Shown: piece after piece, positions 6,533 through 52,447 of the stretch | Layout of the letters: every line of letters begins with the position of its first letter | Position numbering within the stretch: position 1 is the stretch's first letter | Source of the DNA: a virus | DNA: 56,135 bases | Virus record (IMG/VR): IMGVR_UViG_3300035698_007134 | Span: 1 to 56,135 of that record | Strand: one strand, 5' to 3' | The notes under the pieces: model-generated | Databases searched by the model: none | Told to the model about the DNA's origin: nothing | Seen by the model: the letters and a program-made list of their open reading frames with translations, nothing else | Position numbers and translations under genes: made by a program

Positions 6533-8248
6533 ATGTTGAAACCGAGGACTGTGAAAAAGATCGGGACTAAAGCGGATTTTACTAAGGAAATTCTCGAAGC
6601 AGTTAGAATTATTGCTGAACCAGTAAAAGCAACCTTAGGACCCGATGGATGTCCTATTATTCTTGATAGAGGTAAATATTCTCCACTAATTACAAAAGAT
6701 GGTGTAACTGTTGCTAAGTCTATTTTTGTATCTGACGTGGTTAAGGATCTTATGATTAGGGCTATTAAGGAAGCGTCGGAGAAGACCAATGCAGAAGTGG
6801 GTGACGGTACTACAACGGCGATTGTGTTGGTTGAAGCACTTTTAAATGAAGGAATGAAATTTATTAAATCTGGGCTTATCACTCCGCAAGCCCTTGTTAG
6901 GGAGATAAAAGCTTGTATTCCTAGTATTAAGACGAATTTAACTAGTATGTGTAAAAAGGTTGTTAGTGAACAGGATATTAAATATGTAGCTAATATTTCT
7001 GCTAATAATGATCCAGAGATCGCTAGTGCTGTAGTGGAAGCTGTGATGAGGTCTGGTGCAGATGGTGTTACTTCTATTGAAGAAGGAACGAGTACGGATA
7101 TTAAGGTTTGTCCAGTCGATGGATTCCAAATAGGTAAGGGTTGGAGCACTCATAAAGAATACTCTATCAAGTTGATGCAGTCGGCTACACGCCAAGAGTT
7201 TTCTTATGCAACACCTGCGGTGCTTTGTTATAATGGTGATGTTACAGATGTGAGTGAATTTTCTGATTTCATTATAGCTTTTCATGAGATTAATGTTGGG
7301 GCGCAGGTGCCAAAAGCTGCTCTTAGTGCGCCAATTATTATTGTAGCCCATATGTTTAGTGGTGCAATTCGTCAGTTTATGGTTGATAATATGATTCAGA
7401 ATGGCATTCAGATTATGCTTGTTGAGACAGAACTTTGGGGTACTGAACACAGTCGTGTTTATCAAATTAATGATTTGGCTGAATATACTGGTGGAAAAGT
7501 TGTTACTCATGGTAATCTTAGGACGATTATTAGTAAGAAAGAAGATGGTACTCCATGTGTTGATGATTCTTACCTTGGATGTTGTGAGAAGGCCATTCAA
7601 ACTAAGGGTAATACAACATTCTATGGTGGTGAAAAGAACGAAGAGAAATTGCAGGAATATATTGAAGAAGTACGGGCCACCAAAGATAATGCAGAGCATG
7701 CTTGGGATATGGAGATTCATCAGAAACGAATCGCTCGTCTACTAGATGGCATTACTGTTATTGAATGTGGTGGTACTACCACTCTTGAAATTAAAGAACG
7801 TATGGATCGAGTTATTGATGCCGTGTCCGCAACACGGGCTGCACTTAAAGGTGGTATTGTTCCAGGTGGTGGTATCGCTTTATATGATTGTGCTCAGACA
7901 TTTGAAATTGGGACTAGTTGTGGTGAGAATGTTTTGGCTCGTGCTCTTCAAGCTCCATTACGTCAGATTATTAGTAATACGGGTAAGCCTCCCGATGGTA
8001 TTATTGAAAATATTAATAGTATAGATCCCTTGCTTGGTGGCGGTTATGTAGGCTATGATGCTTTGCTTCATAAAATTAGTGATGACATGTTTGGTGATGG
8101 TATCGTAGATCCATTAATGGTAGTGGAGATAGCGGTTATGAATGCATTGTCTATTGGTTGTGAATTGTTGCGTGGTGGCGGCTATGTGGTCATTAAGAGT
8201 GAGGCAGCAGATCCAGATGATGAGATGATGGGCAACCCTACTGAATAA
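6533..8248 (+). CDS. groEL: GroEL-like chaperonin (phage-encoded)
   Basis: 571 residues against about 548 for E. coli GroEL. The start has AAAGGAG upstream. The ATP-binding motif GDGTTTA is at about 90-96, ATLGPDG at about 33-39, and the equatorial motif GGIVPGGGIAL at about 439-449. The C-terminus (DPDDEMMGNPTE) lacks the GGM repeat typical of bacterial GroEL. Chaperonins of this kind fold viral or host proteins, often capsid subunits, in the cytoplasm; some large phages encode their own. No GroES-like gene was seen in the window, so it either uses host GroES or works alone. It is the first gene of the long rightward operon, so it is probably expressed early. Confidence 0.93.
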   Translation: MLKPRTVKKIGTKADFTKEILEAVRIIAEPVKATLGPDGCPIILDRGKYSPLITKDGVTVAKSIFVSDVVKDLMIRAIKEASEKTNAEVGDGTTTAIVLVEALLNEGMKFIKSGLITPQALVREIKACIPSIKTNLTSMCKKVVSEQDIKYVANISANNDPEIASAVVEAVMRSGADGVTSIEEGTSTDIKVCPVDGFQIGKGWSTHKEYSIKLMQSATRQEFSYATPAVLCYNGDVTDVSEFSDFIIAFHEINVGAQVPKAALSAPIIIVAHMFSGAIRQFMVDNMIQNGIQIMLVETELWGTEHSRVYQINDLAEYTGGKVVTHGNLRTIISKKEDGTPCVDDSYLGCCEKAIQTKGNTTFYGGEKNEEKLQEYIEEVRATKDNAEHAWDMEIHQKRIARLLDGITVIECGGTTTLEIKERMDRVIDAVSATRAALKGGIVPGGGIALYDCAQTFEIGTSCGENVLARALQAPLRQIISNTGKPPDGIIENINSIDPLLGGGYVGYDALLHKISDDMFGDGIVDPLMVVEIAVMNALSIGCELLRGGGYVVIKSEAADPDDEMMGNPTE

Positions 8249-11414: not shown

Positions 11415-14400
11415 TTACGCAGCACTGCACTGTCATTCCATGTATTCACTTTGACGGTGTGGGTACTATATCTCAATGGGTAACCATGGCTAAGGAGAAG
11501 GGGCTATATGGGTTAGGTCTTACTGACCATGGCAATATGTCTGCGGCATTGGAATTGTATTTTAAGGGTAAATCTGAGGGGTTTCCAGTAGTGCTTGGTT
11601 CAGAGTTTTATGTTGTTGATGATTTTACTAAAAAAGAATATTACCATATGACTGTATGGTGTAAGAATGCTGTGGGATATCGTAATCTTTGTACTTTATC
11701 AACTATGTCGTATGGTACTCAAAAGGGCGATCCGCATTTCTATAAAAAGCCTCGCATTAATTATGATGAATTGATTGCTCATAAAGAGGGATTGATAGTT
11801 GGCAGTGGTTGTTATATTGGTGAAATTAATCATTGTGTGTGTCATGGCAAAATAGATCAAGCTAGTTATTTATTAACGAAGCTTACTAAGGCTTTTGGTG
11901 ATGATTTCTATCTTGAAATTATGCCTGCTATGGTTACTACTGATAAAAGAATGGGTATACTGGAGCCAGGTGATAATTTACAAGAGAAGATGAATGCTAA
12001 ATTATTGGATATTTCTAAAACGACAGGTATTAAATATATTTGTTCATCTGATGCTCATATGCCAGATAAGAGTCTAGAGATTGTACAAAAGATTAAGATG
12101 GCGAATTTTGCTAAGAGTAAAAAGGAACGTTGGGAGTTTGATTATATTTATTATCTTCATGATAATAAGGAGTTTACTAAGCAGTGGACTGAAGAATTTG
12201 GTCTATCAATGGAGGATTTTGAGGTTGGATGTGCTAATACTCGTGAGATAGTAGATAAATGTCAAGGTCTTAAATTGGAGTTTGAGGATAGATTCCCTGT
12301 TATTGATCATTCTCGTTATCCTACCTACAAAGAGGGTGCGACTGATCTTTCTTTGACCTTGTCGTTATGTCGTTATCATGGTAGATTATCTAATGATTCT
12401 ATTTATTTAGAGAGACTTGAACGAGAAATTGAAGTATTACATAATAATGGTAAATCATCATTTTTAAGTTATTTTTTGCTTTTAGAGGATGTGTGTAGAT
12501 ATTGCAAGAAAGTTGGAGCTATTAAGGGTCCCGCTCGTGGTTCGGCTGGTGGTAGTTTGCTTGCTTATTTATTATGTATTACTGATATTGATCCGATTAA
12601 GCATGATCTTTCATTTGAGCGATTTATTAATCTGACTCGTATTGAGAAGGGAACGTTACCAGATATTGATTTGGATTTTGGTAATCGTGATGTGGTTCTA
12701 GATTATTTGGGAGAGGTTTATGGTCGAGAGAAGGTGTCTAGTGTTGGTCTTATTCAAACGCTTAAGCCTAAGATGGCTGCTAAAGATGCATTTCGTATCT
12801 TGCGTCCGGATATGCCTACTGGACAAGTTGATTCGTTCGCGGCGGCCATTCCGTGGGCTGATTCTGAAACTGATATTTCAGAGAAGAAAGTTAAGGCCGC
12901 TATTAAGGAATCTTGTGATTTGTATCACTATCTTAAAGACAATAAGGATGTAGAGGCTGGTATTTTAAATTCAATTGGTCAGATGCGACATTTTGGTACG
13001 CATGCTGCTGCTGTGGTTATTAGTCCAGAAGATTTACGAAATTTTGTACCCTTAATGCGTAAGGCGTCAGATAATAAGTACTATACACAATATTCTAAAG
13101 ATTGGTGCGCTAAGGCGGGTCTAATTAAGTATGATATCTTAGGGCTAAATACATTGAATGTTATTGAAGAATGTATGATACTTATAAAGGAGCGTCATGG
13201 GTTAGTGTTTGATCCGTGGGCTGATTTACCTTTAGATGATAAGGCAACATTGGAGGCATTTAATGATTCGGATACTAGCACGATCTTCCAGTTCAATACG
13301 GACGCATTCAAAGATTTATTACGTATTGGTGTTGTTAGTGAATTTAATGACCTTGTCGTTATCAATACTCTTGGTCGTCCTGGGACTCTTGATATGGGGA
13401 TGCATCTTGAGTGGGTTGAGCGTCGTAAGGGTAATAAAAAGATTGAATACCCACATCAATCGCTTGCACCAGTACTAAAAGATACCTTAGGAATCATTCT
13501 CTATCAAGAGCAAGTGATGAAATCTTTGCAAGTGTTAGCTGACTTTACTGACGCAGAGGCAGATGATATTAGACGCGCCATTGGTAAAAAGAAGACTGAA
13601 GTATTGGAGCGTTATAAGCCTGTTTTTTTAGATAGATCTGTTAAGAAATGGGATGATCTTACTGATGATAAATCATTAGAGATATGGGGGCTAATGGAGG
13701 CGTTTGGTCGATATAGTTTTAATTTATCACATGCTCTTGCTTACTCACTTATTTCATATGCTCAGCAATATATGAAGATTCATTATCCAGTTGAGTATTG
13801 GTGTGCTGTGTTGCGCAATGAAGATGATGCTGATAAAAATCGCCTACTTTATAAAAGTATTAAACAATGGATAGCCCCCTATGACATTAATAAATCAAGT
13901 GATAGATTTCAGATTGTTGATGATATGGTTGTCCCTCCCATTAATTCTATTAAGTTCATCGGGCCAATAGTTTCTCAGACATTGGAGAAAATGCGTCCAA
14001 TTTCTTCTCTTAAGCAGTTTTTAGATGGTATGAATAATTCTAAAGGTAAGATGATTTTTAAAAAGCATGTGGTAATTAATATGATTTTGGGTGGTTTATT
14101 TGATGATGTGGAACCAGATATGACGCCCATTGAGATGATTAAAGAATATTATTTACAGGTGGCTGGTGCAAAAATTAAGCGAGATGGGAAACCAAATAAA
14201 ATTCTATTGGAATTTGAACAACGCCATAACACTAAGACCCAAGAAGATTTGAAGCGTGAGCGTATGATGCTTTTACCATTTAATGATATAGATCTAATGG
14301 GGTTATTACCTAGTGATAAACGAGATAGATTTAGTCAATATCCGGATGTTTTAAAATATGCAGATGGGTCACAGGTATGTTTAATAGGGGTAGTTTTAGA

Positions 14401-14617
14401 TATATATTCTATTAAAGATAAGCGTGGGCGTCCTATGTTTTTTGTTAATTTGATGAATGCGGGAGAGACTATTAACTTAACGGTGTGGCATGAAAATGCT
14501 ATAACTTATCGTGGGATGTTTCAGCGTGGTAAAATTGTTGCATTAATAGGTAATATTAACAGGTATAGGGGTAAGTTTTCCGTTATACTAAAGAAAGCAC
14601 AGGAGGTTTCAGGATGA
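11404..14617 (+). CDS. dnaE: C-family (DnaE/Pol III alpha-like) DNA polymerase, +1 frameshift needed
   Basis: About 1,068 residues if the ribosome shifts +1 at CTT TGA C (11449-11455), skipping T11452. The start is ATG 11404 with AGGAGG upstream. PHP domain: LHCHS lies before the shift; LTDHGNM, GSEF and SSDAHM lie after it. The palm holds GPARGSAGGS (about 374) and the catalytic-Asp motif PDIDLDF (about 418). A C-terminal OB fold (about 984-1065) binds DNA. Without the shift, translation could begin at GTG 11459, but this loses the first His pair of the PHP metal site. It is the main replicase, in an operon with helicase and primase. A C-family enzyme replaces the A- or B-family polymerases of most phages. 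Confidence 0.9.
11449..11455 (+). promoter_or_regulatory. Putative +1 frameshift site (CTT TGA C)
   Basis: The heptamer CTTTGAC, in frame as CTT TGA C, is identical to the slippery core of the bacterial prfB (RF2) +1 frameshift. Slippage of the Leu tRNA from CUU to UUU would place GAC next and restore the D-G of the PHP motif. The internal AGGGGG stimulator of prfB is not seen just upstream; the nearest purine-rich site is the start-codon AGGAGG about 50 bases away. Confidence 0.55.
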
Positions 14618-15582
14618 GTAACATGAATGATAGGGTGATTAAGAAGGGCAAGAAGATAATTATTGCAGTAGCTGGTCCAAAGGGTAGTGGTAAGACATCA
14701 TTGTGTAATAATCTTAAGAAATATTATGGTGGTGATGTTCATTCTTTTGCTTCTGAATTAAAGGATATAGTTCAGAAGGCTTTTGAATTGCCCAGTGCAT
14801 ATATCTATGGAGATAAGAAGGAGGATTCGCTGCCTAGTAGGATTAAGGGTGAAATTCCAATGACGTCTAAGTATTATAGGCGTATTCTTATTGATATGGA
14901 GCGTAGACTTAAATCGATTGGACTTATTGATTTTGATTGGCGTAAGATCGCTGTTAATTTATATGGTAATCCAGTATTTACTAGTGGAAGAAACATTTTA
15001 CAGTGGGTGGGTACTAATTTGATGCATAAGGTCTATAAAGATTTTCATTGTGTTATGTTAAATTCGAAGTTTAAAAATCCAGGTATTTATTATATAGATG
15101 ATTTAAGGTTTGAATCTGAACATGAATATTTAATTAATAACGCTCCTGGTAATTATGAATACTATTCAATGGTTATTCGTGGTCGTAATGAGGTAGAGGA
15201 TGATAAAATTGAGCATATATCTGAAGCAGAGTGGCGCAGGTGTAGTAATATAGAAGTTGTTAATAATGATACTATTGTAAAATTCTATGATAGAGGCAAG
15301 AAGTTTTTTAATGCATTCGCTGATAATGCTTTGAATGATGTAGATTTTCCTTCTTTTGAGGAGAAAACCAATGAAAAGAAGTCAGAAGAGTCGAAGAAAG
15401 ACGAAAAGAAGAAAGATTCGGATAAGTCGAAGGAAACTTCTGTTATCACGGCTCCCTCGGCTGGCGGTGAAGACGTGAGTAACGATGAAGAAAAATCAAT
15501 AGAAAAAGACAATGGAATACAGAATAAAAATGATGAAAAGAAAGGGTGGAAATCAGTCCTTGGGCGTCTTACGAAAGATTAG
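14614..15582 (+). CDS. Deoxynucleoside monophosphate kinase (T4 gp1-like)
   Basis: 322 residues, starting in an ATGA overlap with the polymerase stop. The P-loop AGPKGSGKTS lies at about 19-28, and the phage dNMP-kinase signature GRNILQWVGT at about 125-134. The kinase core ends near residue 230. A low-complexity Lys/Glu/Ser tail follows (about 245-310) and has no counterpart I know in the family. The enzyme phosphorylates dNMPs from degraded host DNA. In this genome it is a candidate for dZMP phosphorylation if 2-aminoadenine is made. Confidence 0.8.
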   Translation: MSNMNDRVIKKGKKIIIAVAGPKGSGKTSLCNNLKKYYGGDVHSFASELKDIVQKAFELPSAYIYGDKKEDSLPSRIKGEIPMTSKYYRRILIDMERRLKSIGLIDFDWRKIAVNLYGNPVFTSGRNILQWVGTNLMHKVYKDFHCVMLNSKFKNPGIYYIDDLRFESEHEYLINNAPGNYEYYSMVIRGRNEVEDDKIEHISEAEWRRCSNIEVVNNDTIVKFYDRGKKFFNAFADNALNDVDFPSFEEKTNEKKSEESKKDEKKKDSDKSKETSVITAPSAGGEDVSNDEEKSIEKDNGIQNKNDEKKGWKSVLGRLTKD

Positions 15583-28861: not shown

Positions 28862-29202
28862 GTGCTCTTAAACAGCCATTTCGTGATTTGGTTAAGGAGA
28901 TTCAAGTAGAGCTTGATAAAGCGTGTCTTCCGTTTCGTGTGTTTGAAACGTTGCGTACTTCAAAACGTCAGGATTTATTATATGGTAGGGGTGCTAGTGG
29001 TACACGGAAATCACGTCATCTTGTAGGTTATGCTTGTGATTTTGTTATTTATGAGAATGGTGGTTGGTCATGGGATTTGGATGAATATCTTGATGATTAT
29101 CAAGAATTGGGTAGGATAATTAAAGCTATGAGTAATAAACATTTAGTATGGGGCGGTAAGTGGAGACGTAGAGATTACGTACACGTCGAATATAGGGAAT
29201 AG
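28795..29202 (+). CDS. M15-family peptidase (endolysin-like, L-alanyl-D-glutamate type)
   Basis: 135 residues. The zinc ligands follow the M15 pattern: SRHLVGYACDFV (about 72-83, His and Asp) and YVHVEY (about 127-132, last His, catalytic Glu). The N-terminus is basic with no signal peptide, so release would need a holin or membrane damage. T5-like phages use this fold to cut peptidoglycan cross-links at lysis; here it is the best endolysin candidate. Confidence 0.82.
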   Translation: MAQKRSNKTGKKSISTKRIARLSALKQPFRDLVKEIQVELDKACLPFRVFETLRTSKRQDLLYGRGASGTRKSRHLVGYACDFVIYENGGWSWDLDEYLDDYQELGRIIKAMSNKHLVWGGKWRRRDYVHVEYRE

Positions 29203-29204
29203 AT

Positions 29205-29708
29205 ATGTTAAAAAAATATTTAAAACAAATAATTGTTGAAGCTCTTACTAGTATGGCTCAGAGTGGTATAGATCAGAATGGATTGAGTGGTTCTGTAAGG
29301 GTAGAAAATCTAGGTCTTCCATTTCCAGGAACCCCCCAAGATGGAGATGGTGGGTTCAAGGGCAAGGAAAGTACCAAGAAGGCAGCCAAAACCCCCCCTC
29401 CTGAGGGCCATAAAGATGTGTCTAATAGTCCTTTTGAATCTTTAGTAGGTATTGAAGCTATTGCTGGTTTGGCTGTTTGGAAAGAGATTAATGAAGCATA
29501 CCTTAGTTTACTTAATCAAATTCTAGGACAAGCGCAGGTAATAAATTATCAGTATCGCCGTCTTGCTCAAGTTGAGGGGTTTATTAAAGCGCTTAAAGAG
29601 CGTCTTAGTACAGATGCGGAACAATTAGAGGATCTAGAGTTGTTAGTTACAGACTATGGACTAGATGCTCAATTATTTTCGGAGAGTTATGACCCATTCA
29701 AACAATGA
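29205..29708 (+). CDS. Unknown protein following endolysin
   Basis: 167 residues. An N-terminal amphipathic helix is followed by a Gly/Pro/Lys-rich linker (about 25-75) and a helical C-terminal domain (about 80-165) ending in an acidic stretch. No motif recognised. It starts two bases after the endolysin stop and could be a lysis accessory or virion protein. Confidence 0.5.
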   Translation: MLKKYLKQIIVEALTSMAQSGIDQNGLSGSVRVENLGLPFPGTPQDGDGGFKGKESTKKAAKTPPPEGHKDVSNSPFESLVGIEAIAGLAVWKEINEAYLSLLNQILGQAQVINYQYRRLAQVEGFIKALKERLSTDAEQLEDLELLVTDYGLDAQLFSESYDPFKQ

Positions 29709-30268: not shown

Positions 30269-31381
30269 TTATTCGAGATCGATAATGTCATCATTATCGG
30301 GGCCAGTGCCAATGAGGACTACTGGTAATCCAGTTTTTCTTTCAATATGATGGATAAATGCTTGTGTCTGATGGGTAAGTCCTGACCAATTTTTGGCCTT
30401 ATAACTACCCCAGTCTATATATTGTACGAAATTTATCATTAATTTAGTGGCTGATGATATTCTCACTGAGTCCATGAGACCTTTCCAAGAGAATGTAAAG
30501 ACCCGTCGTAGTCTTTTTGTGACTGTGGTTAACTGTTGGGAATATAATTTGTCGATTTCTTCTTGTGGCATCTGGGCATTTTCTCCCACTTCTTGCCATG
30601 TTAATTCTTTCTGATCTGGATAACCAGGGCCAGAGTTGCCGATTTCATTGCCATTCTCTATAATATTACCAACTCTAATAGGAGTAGAATGAATATTTAA
30701 ATAGATGTCACCGATTTTATTTAAGGGTGGTGCCATGTCAGAAATAGCTTGTAATGAATTAGTAGATCGAGATGTACAATATGGATATTCAATACCATGA
30801 TTAATGTCTAATCCAATTCCTTGTGATACTTCATGAAATGCAGTCTTACCTTCTTTTAGATGTTCATGTAATTGGTATACCATATTTGGATTAATATGTG
30901 AGGCCAATTCGTCATAATCTCGTGCTAGACGAAGATTTGGTTTGCGAAGGATTTTATCTGATAAGAATGTGCCGCTTCCTTGGCAAGTTGATGCGATAGA
31001 CTTGGGTCCATTAAGATCAGTTTCTTCTCTGAGTTTATGTGCTTTGGTAACTACACCCGCTCTGGGGTGGATATGTATTGGTGTAGTAATATTACATTGA
31101 TCTAATTCTTTTGCGAATTGTTCTAAGGTGAAGATGGCTGTTGGTCCAATTTGAATTATTGGGCTATAGTTTTTATGTAATTTACTCATATAAGCGCCAG
31201 ATGGTAGGATTTTGGCGATAAAAATATCGTTTCCTTGTCTATAAGTATGTCCGGCGTTGGGTGTATTGGTTGAACAGAGAATCTCTGGGCGATATTTTTC
31301 AGTAAGATAACAATACATTTTTGCTTTGCCTGAACTTCCTGCGAATGCATCTACTAACATGTTGAATTTGCCACGTTCCAT
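30269..31381 (-). CDS. purZ: PurZ-like 2-aminoadenylosuccinate synthetase (PurA family)
   Basis: 370 residues, shorter than PurA (about 430). The PurA loop GDEGKGK appears as GSSGKAK (15-21): Ser replaces the catalytic Asp, the hallmark reported for PurZ. Other PurZ-style signatures follow: PNAGHTY (41-47), LPSG (59-62), YPYCTSR (199-205), TPIRVGN (233-239), YPDQKELTW (254-262) and TTVTKRLRRVFTFS (285-298). PurZ joins dGMP and aspartate; host PurB then gives 2-amino-dAMP (dZMP), which ends up replacing dA. AAAGGAG precedes the start. A MazZ-like gene at 36.1 kb and a dNMP kinase at 14.6 kb could complete the route. Confidence 0.87.
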   Translation of the reverse strand: MERGKFNMLVDAFAGSSGKAKMYCYLTEKYRPEILCSTNTPNAGHTYRQGNDIFIAKILPSGAYMSKLHKNYSPIIQIGPTAIFTLEQFAKELDQCNITTPIHIHPRAGVVTKAHKLREETDLNGPKSIASTCQGSGTFLSDKILRKPNLRLARDYDELASHINPNMVYQLHEHLKEGKTAFHEVSQGIGLDINHGIEYPYCTSRSTNSLQAISDMAPPLNKIGDIYLNIHSTPIRVGNIIENGNEIGNSGPGYPDQKELTWQEVGENAQMPQEEIDKLYSQQLTTVTKRLRRVFTFSWKGLMDSVRISSATKLMINFVQYIDWGSYKAKNWSGLTHQTQAFIHHIERKTGLPVVLIGTGPDNDDIIDLE

Positions 31382-31477: not shown

Positions 31478-32869
31478 ATGGCACATTCTAGAGATAAAAT
31501 TAAAAAGACTCCATGTCCAGCATGTGGTATAGAAACTAATAGATGGGCGCGTGTTGAAGGATGGGGTAGAATTTGTGAAATTTGTAAGCGGAGGCTTAAG
31601 CGTGGCGCTTCTATCGCTTGCCCCCTTTATAGTCAGGGGGGTGGTAGATTTTATGGACGAAAATATTGGATTGGGAAGAAGATAGGGAGGTTTGAAGTTA
31701 TTGATGTTCCTATTGAGCCGTTATGTGATGGCCCCCATACTGAGACTCTAATTACTTTGAGGTGTTCGCTTGGACATGAATTTAAACGTCCAGCTGGAGC
31801 CGTGTGGACTAGATGCCCCGTGTGTGTGGACACTAACGCCGCTAATAAGGCGAGATATGTAGTAACGCCGCTTCCAGAAGGAGCCTTAAATTTTGATGAC
31901 TGGTATGACTTTATATTTAAGAACACCGGGATTAAGCTCATAGATGTGCCGTCAAACGCTTGGACTAAGGGCCAGCATCTTAAGGTTGAAGCCGAGTGTT
32001 GGTGTGGAAAGAAGTGGGAACCCAACTGGACTGATTTGACAATGAAACGCGTCACGTCCTGTGGTTGTGTTAGCCGCGTCTCTCAGGCGACAGAAGAAAT
32101 TTATGACTTTTTGAAAGAGCTTGGCTATCACGCCGAGAGCGAATACTCAATTGATGAATATAAGGTTGACATCTACGTTCCGGCTCACAGTTTTGCTGTA
32201 GAATTTAATGGTTTGAGATGGCATAGAGAGGACCAAGATACGAAGAAGTATAATAAGTACCAACAGTACAATATCGTCTATCACGGCATCTATGAAGACG
32301 AGTGGCTCCGCAACAAGCAAGCTATTTTAAATGACATAGCCGTTAGGATTAGAGACAAAGAGCCTCAGTTTGATAATAACCCTATTATTAAAGAGTGTGA
32401 ATATGGAGATGTAAAAGGCTTCCTGCAGACGTATGATAAGGACTCAGTAAAAAAGGGTTCACGTTATATCGGCGTATGGTTAAAAAGCGTTGTGGTTGCC
32501 GCCATGGTGCTCAGGGGCGAAGAAGAGTTAGATATTGTTCGTATGACGGCCCGCCCCAGCGTTGATTGTAGGACATTTTGGGATTTAGTTATTCGATGGA
32601 TTGACGATAACCTTGAATTTAAAGAGTTGTGGGCCTGTAGTGAGAATAGGTATGACGATGGTAAAGTGCTTCAATACTGTGAATTCGATCTTCATAAAGA
32701 AGTGGAATCAACTTATTATTGGATTAGGGGTCGTACTCGCGTGCCTGGTCATGCTATGAAAGATCCTCCTGAGGGTGTTGATGAACGTGAATATTGGGAA
32801 GGAAAGGGGTGGCATAGGTTGTTTGATTGTGGTAAAAAGATTTGGTTATATACTTCTAAACGAACATAA
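31478..32869 (+). CDS. Vsr-fold (EDxHD-type) homing endonuclease
   Basis: 463 residues. The N-terminal 200 carry several zinc-ribbon Cys clusters (PCPACG, CEICKR, RCPVC, CWCGKKW, SCGC). The nuclease core (about 205-290) follows the Vsr-like homing endonuclease pattern: DIYVPAHSFAVEFNGLRWHR, then IYEDEWLRNKQ. A C-terminal domain (about 320-460) of the type often fused to these enzymes follows. The codon third positions look more GC-rich than in neighbours, suggesting recent arrival. It sits between purZ and the GDP-mannose genes and is a free-standing mobile gene. Confidence 0.75.
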   Translation: MAHSRDKIKKTPCPACGIETNRWARVEGWGRICEICKRRLKRGASIACPLYSQGGGRFYGRKYWIGKKIGRFEVIDVPIEPLCDGPHTETLITLRCSLGHEFKRPAGAVWTRCPVCVDTNAANKARYVVTPLPEGALNFDDWYDFIFKNTGIKLIDVPSNAWTKGQHLKVEAECWCGKKWEPNWTDLTMKRVTSCGCVSRVSQATEEIYDFLKELGYHAESEYSIDEYKVDIYVPAHSFAVEFNGLRWHREDQDTKKYNKYQQYNIVYHGIYEDEWLRNKQAILNDIAVRIRDKEPQFDNNPIIKECEYGDVKGFLQTYDKDSVKKGSRYIGVWLKSVVVAAMVLRGEEELDIVRMTARPSVDCRTFWDLVIRWIDDNLEFKELWACSENRYDDGKVLQYCEFDLHKEVESTYYWIRGRTRVPGHAMKDPPEGVDEREYWEGKGWHRLFDCGKKIWLYTSKRT

Positions 32870-40860: not shown

Positions 40861-42066
40861 CTATGCGTTTATTACTTTTCCAAATGGTGGTTTCGCATGG
40901 TCGTGATTTTTATTAGTATTGACCCAAACTACTTTGTAGGGTGGTTTCTTATCAGGAAAATCTGTATACATATCAGTAAAGAAGATTAATAGGGCTGGAT
41001 TATATTTATTCTCTTCTATCCATTTAAAAACTGGTTTGGAGCTTGTACCACCTCTACCTTTGAGTTCTATTAATGATTTCATTTTACTCATGTCCATCAC
41101 TCCCGTTACCGCCGCGTCACATTGTAGGAGTTTTCCTTCATATCCTTGTTTTTTAATCCAGTTGATAATACTATATGCATCTTCTAATTCTTTCTGTGAC
41201 ATTGAGCCTGAAGTATCTACAGCTATTATAAATTTGGGTCCATACATACATCGGCTTCCTGCATAATTGGGGAATCTTCTGTTTCTTCGCCTCCAATAAG
41301 AAGACTCTTGTACGCTTGATGAAATTGATTTACCTACTACGCGTCTAAGTATTTTAACTAAATCACGTTTTCTTTTCCATTTGGCTCTAATTTTTTCTAT
41401 AATCGCTTCTGGTACGTTTCCTTTTTCTTTGGCTTGTTCAACTGCCATACTTATTCGTTCTCTCCAGATCTCTTCTATTGCTTGGCTATTGTTGTTCTCA
41501 CCCCATGAATCATGATCATCGATGGGTTTCATACTCTTTGATGTATTACTTTTTCCTTTTTCTTGATCTTGTTTTCCTTTTTGATTTTGTTCTCCTTCTT
41601 TTTGTTCTTCTCCTTGTTCAGATTCTCCCCCTGTTTGTTGGAGCATTTTGTTGGATTTGGATTGTAGATGTTTATAATAAATCTCTTTACTTTCACTAAT
41701 AGGTAATTTAAATAGCTTATAAGTTAATACGTTATCTGCAAGACTCGCTGGTGGTTTAGTAAAAGGGTCTTGATTAATCTCAATGTCTGCTGCCATGTTG
41801 TCTAGTGTGCGGTCTTTTAATCTACAAAATACGTGGGCAAGAATTACATGCCATAATTCATGTTTGACTATAAACATGCATGCTTCGTCGTCTAGACTTT
41901 CAATCCACTCTTTATTATATCCTATATTAATATTACTATGATCCATTGTTACACCTGCTGTGGGCTTCTTTGGTCTCTCTTGAAATTTCACATAGTCCGT
42001 AAACTCTTGGAGTAACGGGTCTGTGAATACCAGCTTAACCAAACAATTTTGTAATCTGGTACGCAT
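40861..42066 (-). CDS. VWA-domain protein with N-terminal metallopeptidase domain (DUF2201-like)
   Basis: 401 residues, AAGGAGG upstream. The N-terminal domain has a zincin motif HELWHVILAH (69-78) with DNMAADIEIN after it. A Gln/Glu/Lys-rich linker follows (about 140-180). The C-terminal VWA domain carries the metal-site motif DTSGSMS (284-290), GRGGTS and FTDMYTD. This matches the DUF2201 metallopeptidase/VWA family. Such proteins pair with MoxR AAA ATPases, and one is encoded directly upstream, so they probably act as a remodelling complex. The target is unknown. Confidence 0.78.
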   Translation of the reverse strand: MRTRLQNCLVKLVFTDPLLQEFTDYVKFQERPKKPTAGVTMDHSNINIGYNKEWIESLDDEACMFIVKHELWHVILAHVFCRLKDRTLDNMAADIEINQDPFTKPPASLADNVLTYKLFKLPISESKEIYYKHLQSKSNKMLQQTGGESEQGEEQKEGEQNQKGKQDQEKGKSNTSKSMKPIDDHDSWGENNNSQAIEEIWRERISMAVEQAKEKGNVPEAIIEKIRAKWKRKRDLVKILRRVVGKSISSSVQESSYWRRRNRRFPNYAGSRCMYGPKFIIAVDTSGSMSQKELEDAYSIINWIKKQGYEGKLLQCDAAVTGVMDMSKMKSLIELKGRGGTSSKPVFKWIEENKYNPALLIFFTDMYTDFPDKKPPYKVVWVNTNKNHDHAKPPFGKVINA

Positions 42067-42097
42067 ATTACCTCCTTTGTTTTTTTCTCCCCCCCTT

Positions 42098-42125
42098 AGC
42101 TGATCACTGTTGGGGCTGAATGGGG
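42098..42125 (-). repeat. Intergenic repeat copy 2
   Basis: Minus strand reads CCCCATTCAGCCCCAACAG then TGATCAGCT. It abuts the stop codon of the MoxR-like gene and precedes the VWA gene. Confidence 0.75.
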
Positions 42126-43136
42126 TTAATTGCTGATAAGATCGATGATATCTTTCATCATTTCAGCACACTTATCATTGGCTTTATTAAGACGTTTGTT
42201 GATGTTAGGCATGTATCTCATGATATGACCAATCTGTGCCTTGCCGAATCTTAACATTGTTTCTGTAAAATTATTAGAATTTTTGGGTTTATTATTACCT
42301 ACCCAATTATTAATACGAAGGAGTAAGACTCGTTTAGCGAGTGGGTCCATACTTTCTACTTGGTGCTGGTCTGGTGCAGATAGAAATAATGAGGCTGTAG
42401 GGATTGTCTTTAAGATTGACCTGTTCTTCCATGTTGCTGCGCCTTGTGGACCAACACAAGAATTAATGAGTTCTAAACCAATATCTTCACTCACATTGTC
42501 AACCACAGGTAAGATCATTCTTAATTGATTAAGTCCTCGTGGTGTGAAATCTTTAATGGGTAATGTACAATCAGTAGAGCATTTAACATTGTGATCTCCA
42601 AGAATTGCAAGCTCTGCGATTCTGTCGTCGTATCCGCGTGATGAAAAGTAATTTGCCACTTCTGGGACTTCATTATTTACTTTAATAAAGAGACAACGAT
42701 CAATAACTGCTTTGTCCATCTCGGTCACACTATAATCATCTGTATCGGGGTTCATGGCCCCAATAATTGAGCAGTGTGATAGATCATAATTCGCCAATTT
42801 TTTCTGATCTAAAATCTGCATAATAGAGTCCATGAGTACTGGCTTACATCTATTAACTTCATCTAAGAAAAGTACGCCCCCATCTTCAAGACGTTTAAAC
42901 ATCTCTACCTCTGTAAACGTTGTTACTCCATCAATAATTTCTGGTAAACCTAGTAAATCTCCTGGGCTATCCAACGAGCCAACACGGATGATCTCTAGAT
43001 ATTTTTCGTTGTCATGACATGAATCTGTTACTGTTTGTGTCTTGCCTACTCCTGCTCCGCCTACCATAATGAGTGGTGGTAAATCAGATGTGTTAATCCA
43101 TAAATCTGTTAACATTCTTGCTTCGCTTGCTTTCAT
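42126..43136 (-). CDS. MoxR-like AAA ATPase
   Basis: 336 residues, AAGGAGG upstream. Walker A GGAGVGKT (26-33), Walker B VLFLDEVNR (about 89-97), the sensor-1-like segment IIGAMNPD (about 125-132), and DRCLFIKV. This is the MoxR/RavA layout. It lies upstream of the VWA/metallopeptidase gene in the same direction, the standard MoxR-VWA pairing that inserts metals or remodels protein complexes. Its role in a phage is not established. Confidence 0.82.
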   Translation of the reverse strand: MKASEARMLTDLWINTSDLPPLIMVGGAGVGKTQTVTDSCHDNEKYLEIIRVGSLDSPGDLLGLPEIIDGVTTFTEVEMFKRLEDGGVLFLDEVNRCKPVLMDSIMQILDQKKLANYDLSHCSIIGAMNPDTDDYSVTEMDKAVIDRCLFIKVNNEVPEVANYFSSRGYDDRIAELAILGDHNVKCSTDCTLPIKDFTPRGLNQLRMILPVVDNVSEDIGLELINSCVGPQGAATWKNRSILKTIPTASLFLSAPDQHQVESMDPLAKRVLLLRINNWVGNNKPKNSNNFTETMLRFGKAQIGHIMRYMPNINKRLNKANDKCAEMMKDIIDLISN

Positions 43137-50689: not shown

Positions 50690-50802
50690 ACTATCCTCCA
50701 ATCAAAAAGAAAGAGACTCAACCCAAAAATCCTTAATAGGTGTTCAAGTGGTTTTAGTCCCTTAACCTACCCGCAACCAAGTTAAATTATCAGCAGGCAC
50801 GT

Positions 50803-50931
50803 TTATTTTGGTACGTCATCATCTACTGATTGTAGTATTATTTCTACGTTGCTATCACATACGTCTTCGTCTCCTGCTATTTTCACTTGCCAAATTTCAT
50901 TTTCTTGAGTTAGGTCTTCTACCCTAGTCAT
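50803..50931 (-). CDS. 42-residue acidic protein
   Basis: ATG 50931 with AAAGGAGG upstream, 42 residues (begins MTRVEDLTQENEIWQVK, ends QSVDDDVPK). Too short for most gene callers, but it has a strong ribosome site and fits the gene spacing. Function unknown. Confidence 0.55.
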   Translation of the reverse strand: MTRVEDLTQENEIWQVKIAGDEDVCDSNVEIILQSVDDDVPK

Positions 50932-51007
50932 AACTCCTCCTTTTACGGTTGTCTTTGTTTATTGTAATCTAAGAAAGTCATTAATTACAAGTACTCTCTG
51001 AAATAGT

Positions 51008-51223
51008 TCAGATGGTTAGAAGACCCTTCTTGAGTACTTCTTCTGCATTCTCGCCTTCAAACTCCCTACGTTCTACAATGGGTCCTAATGGTTCTGAAGA
51101 GAAGGAGAAGGACGCCCTCCATGTCTCTCCCTGGTGGTATGACTTGACTGATTGTAGGTAACGGCCTACTGCCATAGCCTTCTTTACCGCGTTCTTCTTA
51201 ACTTTTCCGTCTGTCTTCTTCAT
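51008..51223 (-). CDS. Small basic protein
   Basis: 71 residues, AAAGGAGG upstream. Lys-rich start (KKTDGKVKKNAVKKAM), then YHQGETWRASFSFSSEPLG and a short helix. Function unknown. Confidence 0.55.
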   Translation of the reverse strand: MKKTDGKVKKNAVKKAMAVGRYLQSVKSYHQGETWRASFSFSSEPLGPIVERREFEGENAEEVLKKGLLTI

Positions 51224-51516
51224 AACTACCTCCTTTAGTAGCGCAGCCGTAGCTACGCTGCATGGTTAACTTGCCCGCTCCTTATGAGCCAGCTCATTTT
51301 ACCACGCACGTTTTTGTTTGTCTAGAGGAAACTACTTCTGTAATTCTTAGAGACCTAGGTTACCACCCATTGACGCCATAATCACCTAATTAGGAATTAG
51401 GGGGCTAATTGTCTCTGTTTCAACCAACTGGCGCGTTCACTGTAATTAGTTAGTTGGGGCCTAATTGGTACTAGTGGGAGGGAGAAACTTATAACGTAGC
51501 TAGGTAAAAGCCTATA

Positions 51517-51544
51517 TTTACGCTTTCTCTCTCGATGCTATAAT
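51517..51544 (+). promoter_or_regulatory. Putative plus-strand promoter inside the non-coding region
   Basis: TTTACG (51517-51522), 16 bases, TATAAT (51539-51544) with TG one base upstream. It points against the flanking minus-strand genes, and no plus-strand gene lies downstream. The transcript would begin near 51551, within the first hairpin. Confidence 0.4.
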
Positions 51545-51546
51545 AA

Positions 51547-51660
51547 CCCCGTAAATTGCTCACGGGGGAACCTCCTTCACATTAAGTGCTTCATATAATG
51601 CAATCCCTTTCAGGGACGAAGAAACACTCAAAGACCTATTTAGGTATTAATTCTAAATAG
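51547..51660 (+). ncRNA. Possible antisense/small RNA with serial hairpins
   Basis: Perfect stems CCCCGT/ACGGGG (51547-51567), TCCCT/AGGGA (51604-51616) and CTATTTA/TAAATAG (51636-51660) lie downstream of the promoter-like site. No U-run terminator is obvious. The orientation rests only on that promoter. Confidence 0.3.
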
Positions 51661-51702
51661 TTCTGTGGCTTTCGAGTTAGTTGGGAGATTGCACTTCCCC
51701 CC

Positions 51703-51900
51703 CTACTTATCTTTCAGCGTATCCTCTATAGATTTGTGTTGATTTTTCAGATTTTCTAGTACCTTCTCCAGGTCGTCCTTAGATAAGTCATGGTCGTCCA
51801 CCTGAAAGAGTAGGCATTCAACTATCCTCTGCTGGGCTTCGTTACAGGTGCCGTCCATTATTAGGGACATGTAAGAAGAAGGGGGTGTGTGTTTATTCAT
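51703..51900 (-). CDS. Small acidic helical protein
   Basis: 65 residues, GGGAGG upstream. DDHDLSKDDLEKVLENLKNQ is a charged helix. Function unknown. Confidence 0.55.
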   Translation of the reverse strand: MNKHTPPSSYMSLIMDGTCNEAQQRIVECLLFQVDDHDLSKDDLEKVLENLKNQHKSIEDTLKDK

Positions 51901-51921
51901 AATAACCTCCCTTTAATTCTA

Positions 51922-52017
51922 TTATAAACAGAACATTATGCAAATAAAGCCGTACAAACAGCCAAACAACCCAATTACTGTTATCACATTAAACGCTGTT
52001 TTCAAAATTTTCATCAT
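51922..52017 (-). CDS. 31-residue membrane peptide
   Basis: ATG 52017 (or 52014) to TAA 51922: begins MMKILKTAFNVITVIGLFGC and stays hydrophobic to the end. One transmembrane helix after a basic start. It has a GGGGGA ribosome site and fills the gap between two genes. Function unknown. Confidence 0.45.
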   Translation of the reverse strand: MMKILKTAFNVITVIGLFGCLYGFICIMFCL

Positions 52018-52019
52018 AA

Positions 52020-52181
52020 TTAATCCCCCATTATTATTACTTTTTCGTTGTCAGCCCAAGGATCGAGCCACTTTTGACCATCACAGAATGTAATCACGTG
52101 ACAACCTAAGTTATCCCAAGTTTCTGTTTGCTCTATGGTCTGTTCTACTAGATCGTCAAAGTCCAACCATAACTCTGCCAT
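52020..52181 (-). CDS. Small acidic protein
   Basis: 53 residues from ATG 52181 (GGGGAG upstream; the ATG at 52208 precedes the ribosome site). Trp/Asp-rich (ELWLDFDDLVEQTIEQTETW). Acidic DNA-mimic character is possible but unproven. Confidence 0.5.
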   Translation of the reverse strand: MAELWLDFDDLVEQTIEQTETWDNLGCHVITFCDGQKWLDPWADNEKVIIMGD

Positions 52182-52183
52182 AA

Positions 52184-52447
52184 TTATCTCCCCTCTTTTT
52201 TCCAGCATTTAACTTTATGAGTAGTAGTACACGTTCCCCCCTTTGCTAGAGTTCCCAGCATCCCGAATAGGGTTAATTTCTTCCCCGCTGTTGCTGGTTT
52301 AGGCGTGATTGTAAGATTATAACTCTCCCCATGAGAGTCAGTCATCTCGCACGTTAGTCCGTCAGCCGTATAATGAGAATCCTTAACTTCTAACCCCTCG
52401 ATCTTTCTAATCTTCATTAGTACTGCCAAACAATTAGTCTCTGCCAT
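52184..52447 (-). CDS. Small protein
   Basis: 87 residues, AAAGGAG upstream. YTADGLTCEMTDSHGESYNL followed by a Lys/Gly/Thr-rich end. It follows an intergenic repeat copy. Function unknown. Confidence 0.5.
   Translation of the reverse strand: MAETNCLAVLMKIRKIEGLEVKDSHYTADGLTCEMTDSHGESYNLTITPKPATAGKKLTLFGMLGTLAKGGTCTTTHKVKCWKKEGR

Follow-up and report, generated by a model that had tools for sequence, protein, structure and literature searches.

The window analysed here, the whole 56,135-nt virus record IMGVR_UViG_3300035698_007134, carries on its minus strand an intact, uninterrupted open reading frame (ORF) for a 370-residue protein whose homology to the PurA/PurZ superfamily is far above chance (Pfam PF00709, E=2.7e-26). 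Judging from its active-site residues and its place in the phylogeny, this gene very probably encodes a PurZ-type 2-amino-deoxyadenylosuccinate synthetase. Because the record bears an exact terminal repeat of 120 bp, it is probably a complete genome, and the gene absences described below carry some weight. A ribosome-binding site (AAAGGAG) lies immediately 5' of the purZ ATG. An earlier sequence-only reading of this locus had proposed a PurZ-like gene in a phage with 2-aminoadenine (Z) DNA, pointing to a catalytic loop in which Ser replaces the catalytic Asp. Residue mapping bears this out: the loop reads GSSGKAK where Escherichia coli PurA has GDEGKGK, and the catalytic Asp13, for which PurZ enzymes have Ser or Gly, aligns with Ser16. 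The other motifs named at that time, TPIRVGN, YPYCTSR (residues 199-205), YPDQ (residues 254-257) and TTVTKRLRRVFTFS, are all present.

Profile searches, which the same reading had suggested, gave a divided answer. The NCBIfam PurZ model matches (E=9e-44, 149.8 bits) below its curated cut-off of 300 bits, a limit set for annotation that does not describe a property of the enzyme's biology, and the short archaeal-type PurA model scores higher, also below its own cut-off; PHROG 1211, "2-aminooxy adenylosuccinate synthetase", matches with E=5e-39. Since both NCBIfam cut-offs were missed, the assignment had to rest on residues and phylogeny.

We mapped the contacts of S-2L PurZ (PMC8342488) onto the window protein, covering 34 S-2L positions in or beside the active site. 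Contacts to the base and to the donor are conserved, the main change being Gly130 to Ala. The window protein has the pocket for the base, the Arg-Val loop that excludes the ribose, with its PurZ-type insertion, the aspartate loop with its TTVT tip and the N-F-x-Q element. In S-2L PurZ the Val loop keeps out the 2'-OH (PMC8342488). E. coli and Pyrococcus horikoshii PurA deviate at the diagnostic positions, and the donor-base position, N-F-x-Q in the window enzyme, is Thr...Asp in the PurA sequences compared. The catalytic loop has Ser in every fetched relative whose loop was read, and Asp in the PurA controls. Because of this residue identity with the S-2L contacts, the window enzyme is predicted to be a PurZ that uses dGMP together with ATP or dATP. 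An AlphaFold model, built from an alignment of 45 rows that are all window or IMG/VR loci, has a mean predicted local distance difference test (pLDDT) score of 94.8. Among solved structures it comes closest to P. horikoshii PurA, the top Foldseek match, and to the PurZ enzymes of phiVC8 and S-2L, at template-modelling (TM) scores of about 0.8; on the evidence of this model, PurA and PurZ are not distinguishable by fold alone.

In a 136-row tree the window protein lies inside a fully supported clade of 36 IMG/VR contigs, many of them 95-436 kb long, and its nearest relatives are L024 (75% identity) and L025 (61%). Because the best isolate match in the phage collection, vB_BpsS-140, is only 35.5% identical, we regard the clade as having no isolate in that collection, and among open-access papers we found no earlier survey of metagenomic Z phages that covers it. 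In a focused 60-row tree, where P. horikoshii is represented by a partial sequence taken from an alignment, the Ser-type enzymes all fall apart from the three PurA rows (100/100), and the window group, together with a MaF61-type pair, forms the sister group (94/85) of the characterised PurZ enzymes. Approximately unbiased (AU) tests, with a small PurA sample and with groups named after the first tree had been seen, rejected grouping of the window protein with PurA (p=0.0002), of the whole group with PurA (p=0.0007) and of the group with PurZ0 (p=5e-5). Tree and AU tests thus reject assignment to PurA or to PurZ0; clustering with true PurA, which the sequence-only reading had named as fatal to its proposal, was not found, and the protein groups with PurZ instead. 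A PurZ function of the gene is very likely on these residue and tree data. Another deep-branching group of Ser-type enzymes (L009, L049, L052, L057 and L058) includes Flavobacterium phage MaF61, whose 168-kb genome also carries a PurB-like gene. Among the genome contigs L061-L115, many Bacillota metagenome-assembled genomes carry Ser-type PurZ-like genes akin to the vB_BpsS-140 lineage.

How does the window enzyme compare with known systems? With the PurZ enzymes of phiVC8, S-2L and SH-Ab 15497, which use ATP and are accompanied by DatZ and MazZ, it shares the Ser loop, the base and donor contacts, the TTVT tip and the loop insertion, as well as the fold (6fm1 and 7odx, TM about 0.8). It is only about 30-35% identical to them, and unlike them it keeps an archaeal-PurA-like C-terminus, LIGTGPDNDDIID. 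The PurZ0 enzymes (Wayne, Ghobes, and Archimedes 7vf6) have the same Ser catalytic residue and fold, but differ in a GSEAK loop and an Asp at the donor-base position; their partners are dutZ/dmtZ and the PolA DpoZ-1 (PMC12884076), whereas the window protein does not cluster with the Wayne and Ghobes enzymes and dutZ (PF00692) was not found in the window. The short archaeal-type PurA of P. horikoshii (5k7x) resembles it in overall length, C-terminal element and fold, yet has the catalytic Asp, a GTP-type Thr...Asp donor site and Gly in place of Thr285. The "purA" lineage of vB_BpsS-140 (L003, L045, L046 and L048) is a separate PurZ lineage (93/90) in which a dUTPase and an adenylate kinase are encoded; like the window it combines a Ser-type enzyme with DnaE, without PolA and without a DatZ profile match.

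The replication genes set the window apart from phages of the phiVC8 and S-2L type, which have PolA or PrimPol together with DatZ. Its polymerase is a DnaE-type DNA polymerase III alpha subunit with an intact catalytic motif, and its primase matches the DNA primase family phrog_47. PolA and PrimPol are the usual polymerase families of Z phages (PMC8599892), and all ZTGC phages except S-2L, whose replicase is a PrimPol (PMC8342488, PMC8599892), have PolA (PMC8342488). In most Z phages, PolA-type DpoZ favours Z over A. DnaE is present and PolA was not found in L024 and L025, although these contigs are possibly incomplete, and in the vB_BpsS-140 lineage PolA was not found in any of seven genomes, five of which, including vB_BpsS-140, have DnaE. 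The vB_BpsS-140 genome paper lists DnaE for that phage; in its sequence (L004:885-4492; MH884512, 48.9-52.5 kb) the gene lies in two overlapping ORFs without a coding sequence in the collection feature table. Larger members of the window clade have both polymerase types, some a split DnaE and some PolA. A DnaE-type polymerase is not reported from Z viruses; here one stands beside PurZ, and PolA is missing.

Genes for the remaining steps are partly present. A MazG-like ORF, a candidate analogue of MazZ, matches Pfam MazG just under the cut-off (E=3e-4) and a PHROG pyrophosphatase family (1.6e-9), though the MazZ-1 profile does not detect it; it is 61-64% identical among the window, L024 and L025, and a pattern search of IMG/VR, which reaches close homologues only, found it nowhere else. 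Its profile gave weak matches only in the PDB, and an AlphaFold model (pLDDT 44) was too poor for use. A deoxynucleoside monophosphate (dNMP) kinase-like gene is likewise common to all three genomes and is possibly a dZMP kinase, although it is not PurZ-specific. L024 and L025 carry purZ, the MazG-like gene and a DatZ-like HD gene together. The DatZ profile detects these HD genes near purZ in both contigs, and elsewhere in the genome in four large clade phages; PF12917 agrees with it for the window, L024 and L025. The two HD proteins are YfbR-like, and one matches the PHROG family "dATP triphosphohydrolase", which is a predicted activity only. Elsewhere in the clade, some members have a dUTPase, directly adjoining purZ in four, and three of the genomes tested have a PurB-like lyase.

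From this gene content the following pathway may be proposed. The MazG-like enzyme would convert dGTP to dGMP, feeding PurZ and draining competing dNTPs. PurZ would then join dGMP and aspartate, with ATP or dATP, to form 2-amino-deoxyadenylosuccinate (dSMP), from which host PurB would release fumarate to give the monophosphate of Z (dZMP); the dNMP kinase of the phage, or kinases of the host, with nucleoside diphosphate kinase, would raise this to the triphosphate (dZTP), from which the phage's own replicase, of DnaE type, would place Z opposite T. Exclusion of A would depend on pool composition and on the use of dATP by PurZ: S-2L PurZ accepts dATP as donor (PMC8342488), and such use would lower dATP. 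Replacement is perhaps incomplete, since neither DpoZ nor DatZ is found in the window. When the S-2L Z-cluster was expressed in E. coli, Z replaced 3.9% of A in the chromosome and 12.1% in a plasmid (PMC8342488); we infer that host DnaE made the Z-containing chromosomal DNA. That the phage makes dZTP, that its DnaE incorporates it, possibly incompletely, and that Z is present in virion DNA is in our judgement reasonably probable, and the Z genome suggested by the sequence-only reading is plausible. We lean slightly towards a broader proposal, in which DnaE phages without DpoZ, in the window clade with its large phages and in the vB_BpsS-140 lineage, represent a third kind of Z-DNA replication whose Z:A ratio is set by the pool and not by the polymerase.

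Several observations weigh against a Z genome made in this way. The window has DnaE and not the PolA or PrimPol of published Z phages (PF00476, PolA/DpoZ: no match), it lacks DatZ (DatZ profile and PF12917: no match), dUTPase (PF00692: no match) and PurB, and partial S-2L Z-clusters gave less substitution in E. coli (PMC8342488). In addition, vB_BpsS-36 (DSM 29701), a phage with no annotated PurZ, carries genes for DnaE, a MazG-domain protein and a dNMP kinase, and none of these genes is therefore indicative of Z by itself. The higher score of the archaeal-type PurA model counts on the same side. The absence of a Z-selective polymerase and a dATPase, like the weaker effect of partial clusters, would fit PurZ chemistry that does not serve a Z genome, in which dSMP and dZMP are made, or dATP and dGMP burned, to the detriment of host or competitor pools, while phage DNA takes up no more than traces of Z. 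We consider this unlikely, as S-2L replaces A by Z with a non-selective polymerase (PMC8342488), and in L024 and L025 the MazG-like gene is about as well conserved as purZ, and a DatZ-like HD gene is retained too.

Could the gene instead be a phage PurA that acts on IMP and raises adenine nucleotides, its Ser being a neutral substitution? Both the top NCBIfam score and the top Foldseek match point towards archaeal-type PurA, but the consistent Ser among relatives against Asp in the controls, the PurZ-specific Thr285, N-F-x-Q and Val-loop insertion, and the AU result against grouping with PurA make this reading disfavoured and very improbable. We give equally little credence to the idea that purZ is degenerating, or was acquired recently as a passenger, and serves no function at present. 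It does lie among variable, cargo-like genes (homing-endonuclease-like, nucleotidyltransferase and cupin), its orientation differs in the L025 contig, and the DatZ-like gene is missing from the window; against this stand the intact ORF and active site, the Shine-Dalgarno sequence, a GC content equal to that of the genome (0.37), and the orthologues in two relatives.

If a DnaE-replicated Z genome is indeed present, Z genomes would reach DnaE-replicating phages, probably including large phages, a Z-selective polymerase would be unnecessary, and it would become testable how A is kept out without polymerase selectivity and, in the window genome, without DatZ. The PurZ enzyme type itself is known; new here is its association with DnaE, in a clade that has no isolate in the phage collection. 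The isolate vB_BpsS-140 (DSM 29700), deposited at DSMZ, is a ready test case for DnaE/PurZ phages. In published digests its genome was the only one uncut by DraI (PMC6483233), and its sequence has 21 DraI and 24 EcoRI sites. EcoRI is, however, said to cut it, and EcoRI and PstI are said to cut vB_BpsS-36 (PMC6483233), whose first 50 kb contain neither site; for these reasons we give the gels little weight. Palindrome statistics were tried as a further test for Z and set aside: CCGG occurs 12 times in the window against 38 expected, and the counts of palindromes containing A/T are close to those expected. Yet the established Z phage phiVC8 shows strong avoidance of GATC, and such counts therefore have no discriminating power.

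Table 1. Positions of the purZ-type gene, its motifs and other features in the window
Feature	Position	Strand	Remarks
purZ-type gene, 370 aa	30269..31381	-	PurA/PurZ superfamily, Ser-type catalytic loop
GSSGKAK codons, residues 15-21	31319..31339	-	Ser16 at catalytic Asp position of PurA
TPIRVGN, residues 233-239	30665..30685	-	includes Arg236/Val237; followed by PurZ-type loop insertion
TTVTKRLRRVFTFS, residues 285-298	30488..30529	-	aspartate loop; TTVT tip like S-2L and phiVC8 PurZ
NFVQ, residues 317-320	30422..30433	-	N-F-x-Q as in S-2L PurZ ATP-base contacts
Syntenic point of missing DatZ/YfbR-like HD gene	29202..29205		present in L024 and L025; three-genome synteny
MazG-like all-alpha NTP pyrophosphohydrolase, 119 aa	36116..36475	-	ExxE...ExxD (EVGE...EVVD); candidate MazZ analogue
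dNMP kinase-like gene	14614..15582	+	phrog_139, 4.6e-26
DNA polymerase III alpha, family C, DnaE type	11459..14617	+	PHP domain; catalytic PDIDLD intact, residue 401
GroEL-type chaperonin	6533..8248	+	Cpn60 E=5.6e-43; PHROG chaperonin 1.6e-94
Endonuclease-like protein	31478..32869	+	REase_MTES_1575, HNH/homing PHROGs
Sigma-70 factor, 408 aa	34560..35786	-	RpoD-like regions 2-4
AAA+ (AAA_5) ATPase and metallopeptidase/VWA-domain protein	40861..43136	-	adjacent; RavA/ViaA-like pair
Region of about 1.5 kb	50701..52184		no ORF of at least 80 aa; GC 0.42

Other genes of the window deserve brief mention. No homologue of the GroEL-type chaperonin was found in the L024 or L025 contigs, which may be incomplete, and Rfam and tRNA scans of the window gave nothing; the 1.5-kb region with raised GC also has no tandem-repeat match. 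The RavA/ViaA-like pair is found at 50-60% in both relatives. The sigma-70 factor lies in the minus-strand arm, and it is speculative that a dedicated sigma factor would be relevant if Z occurs in promoters. Finally, the endonuclease-like gene adjoins purZ in the window and lies near it in L024 and L025 too.
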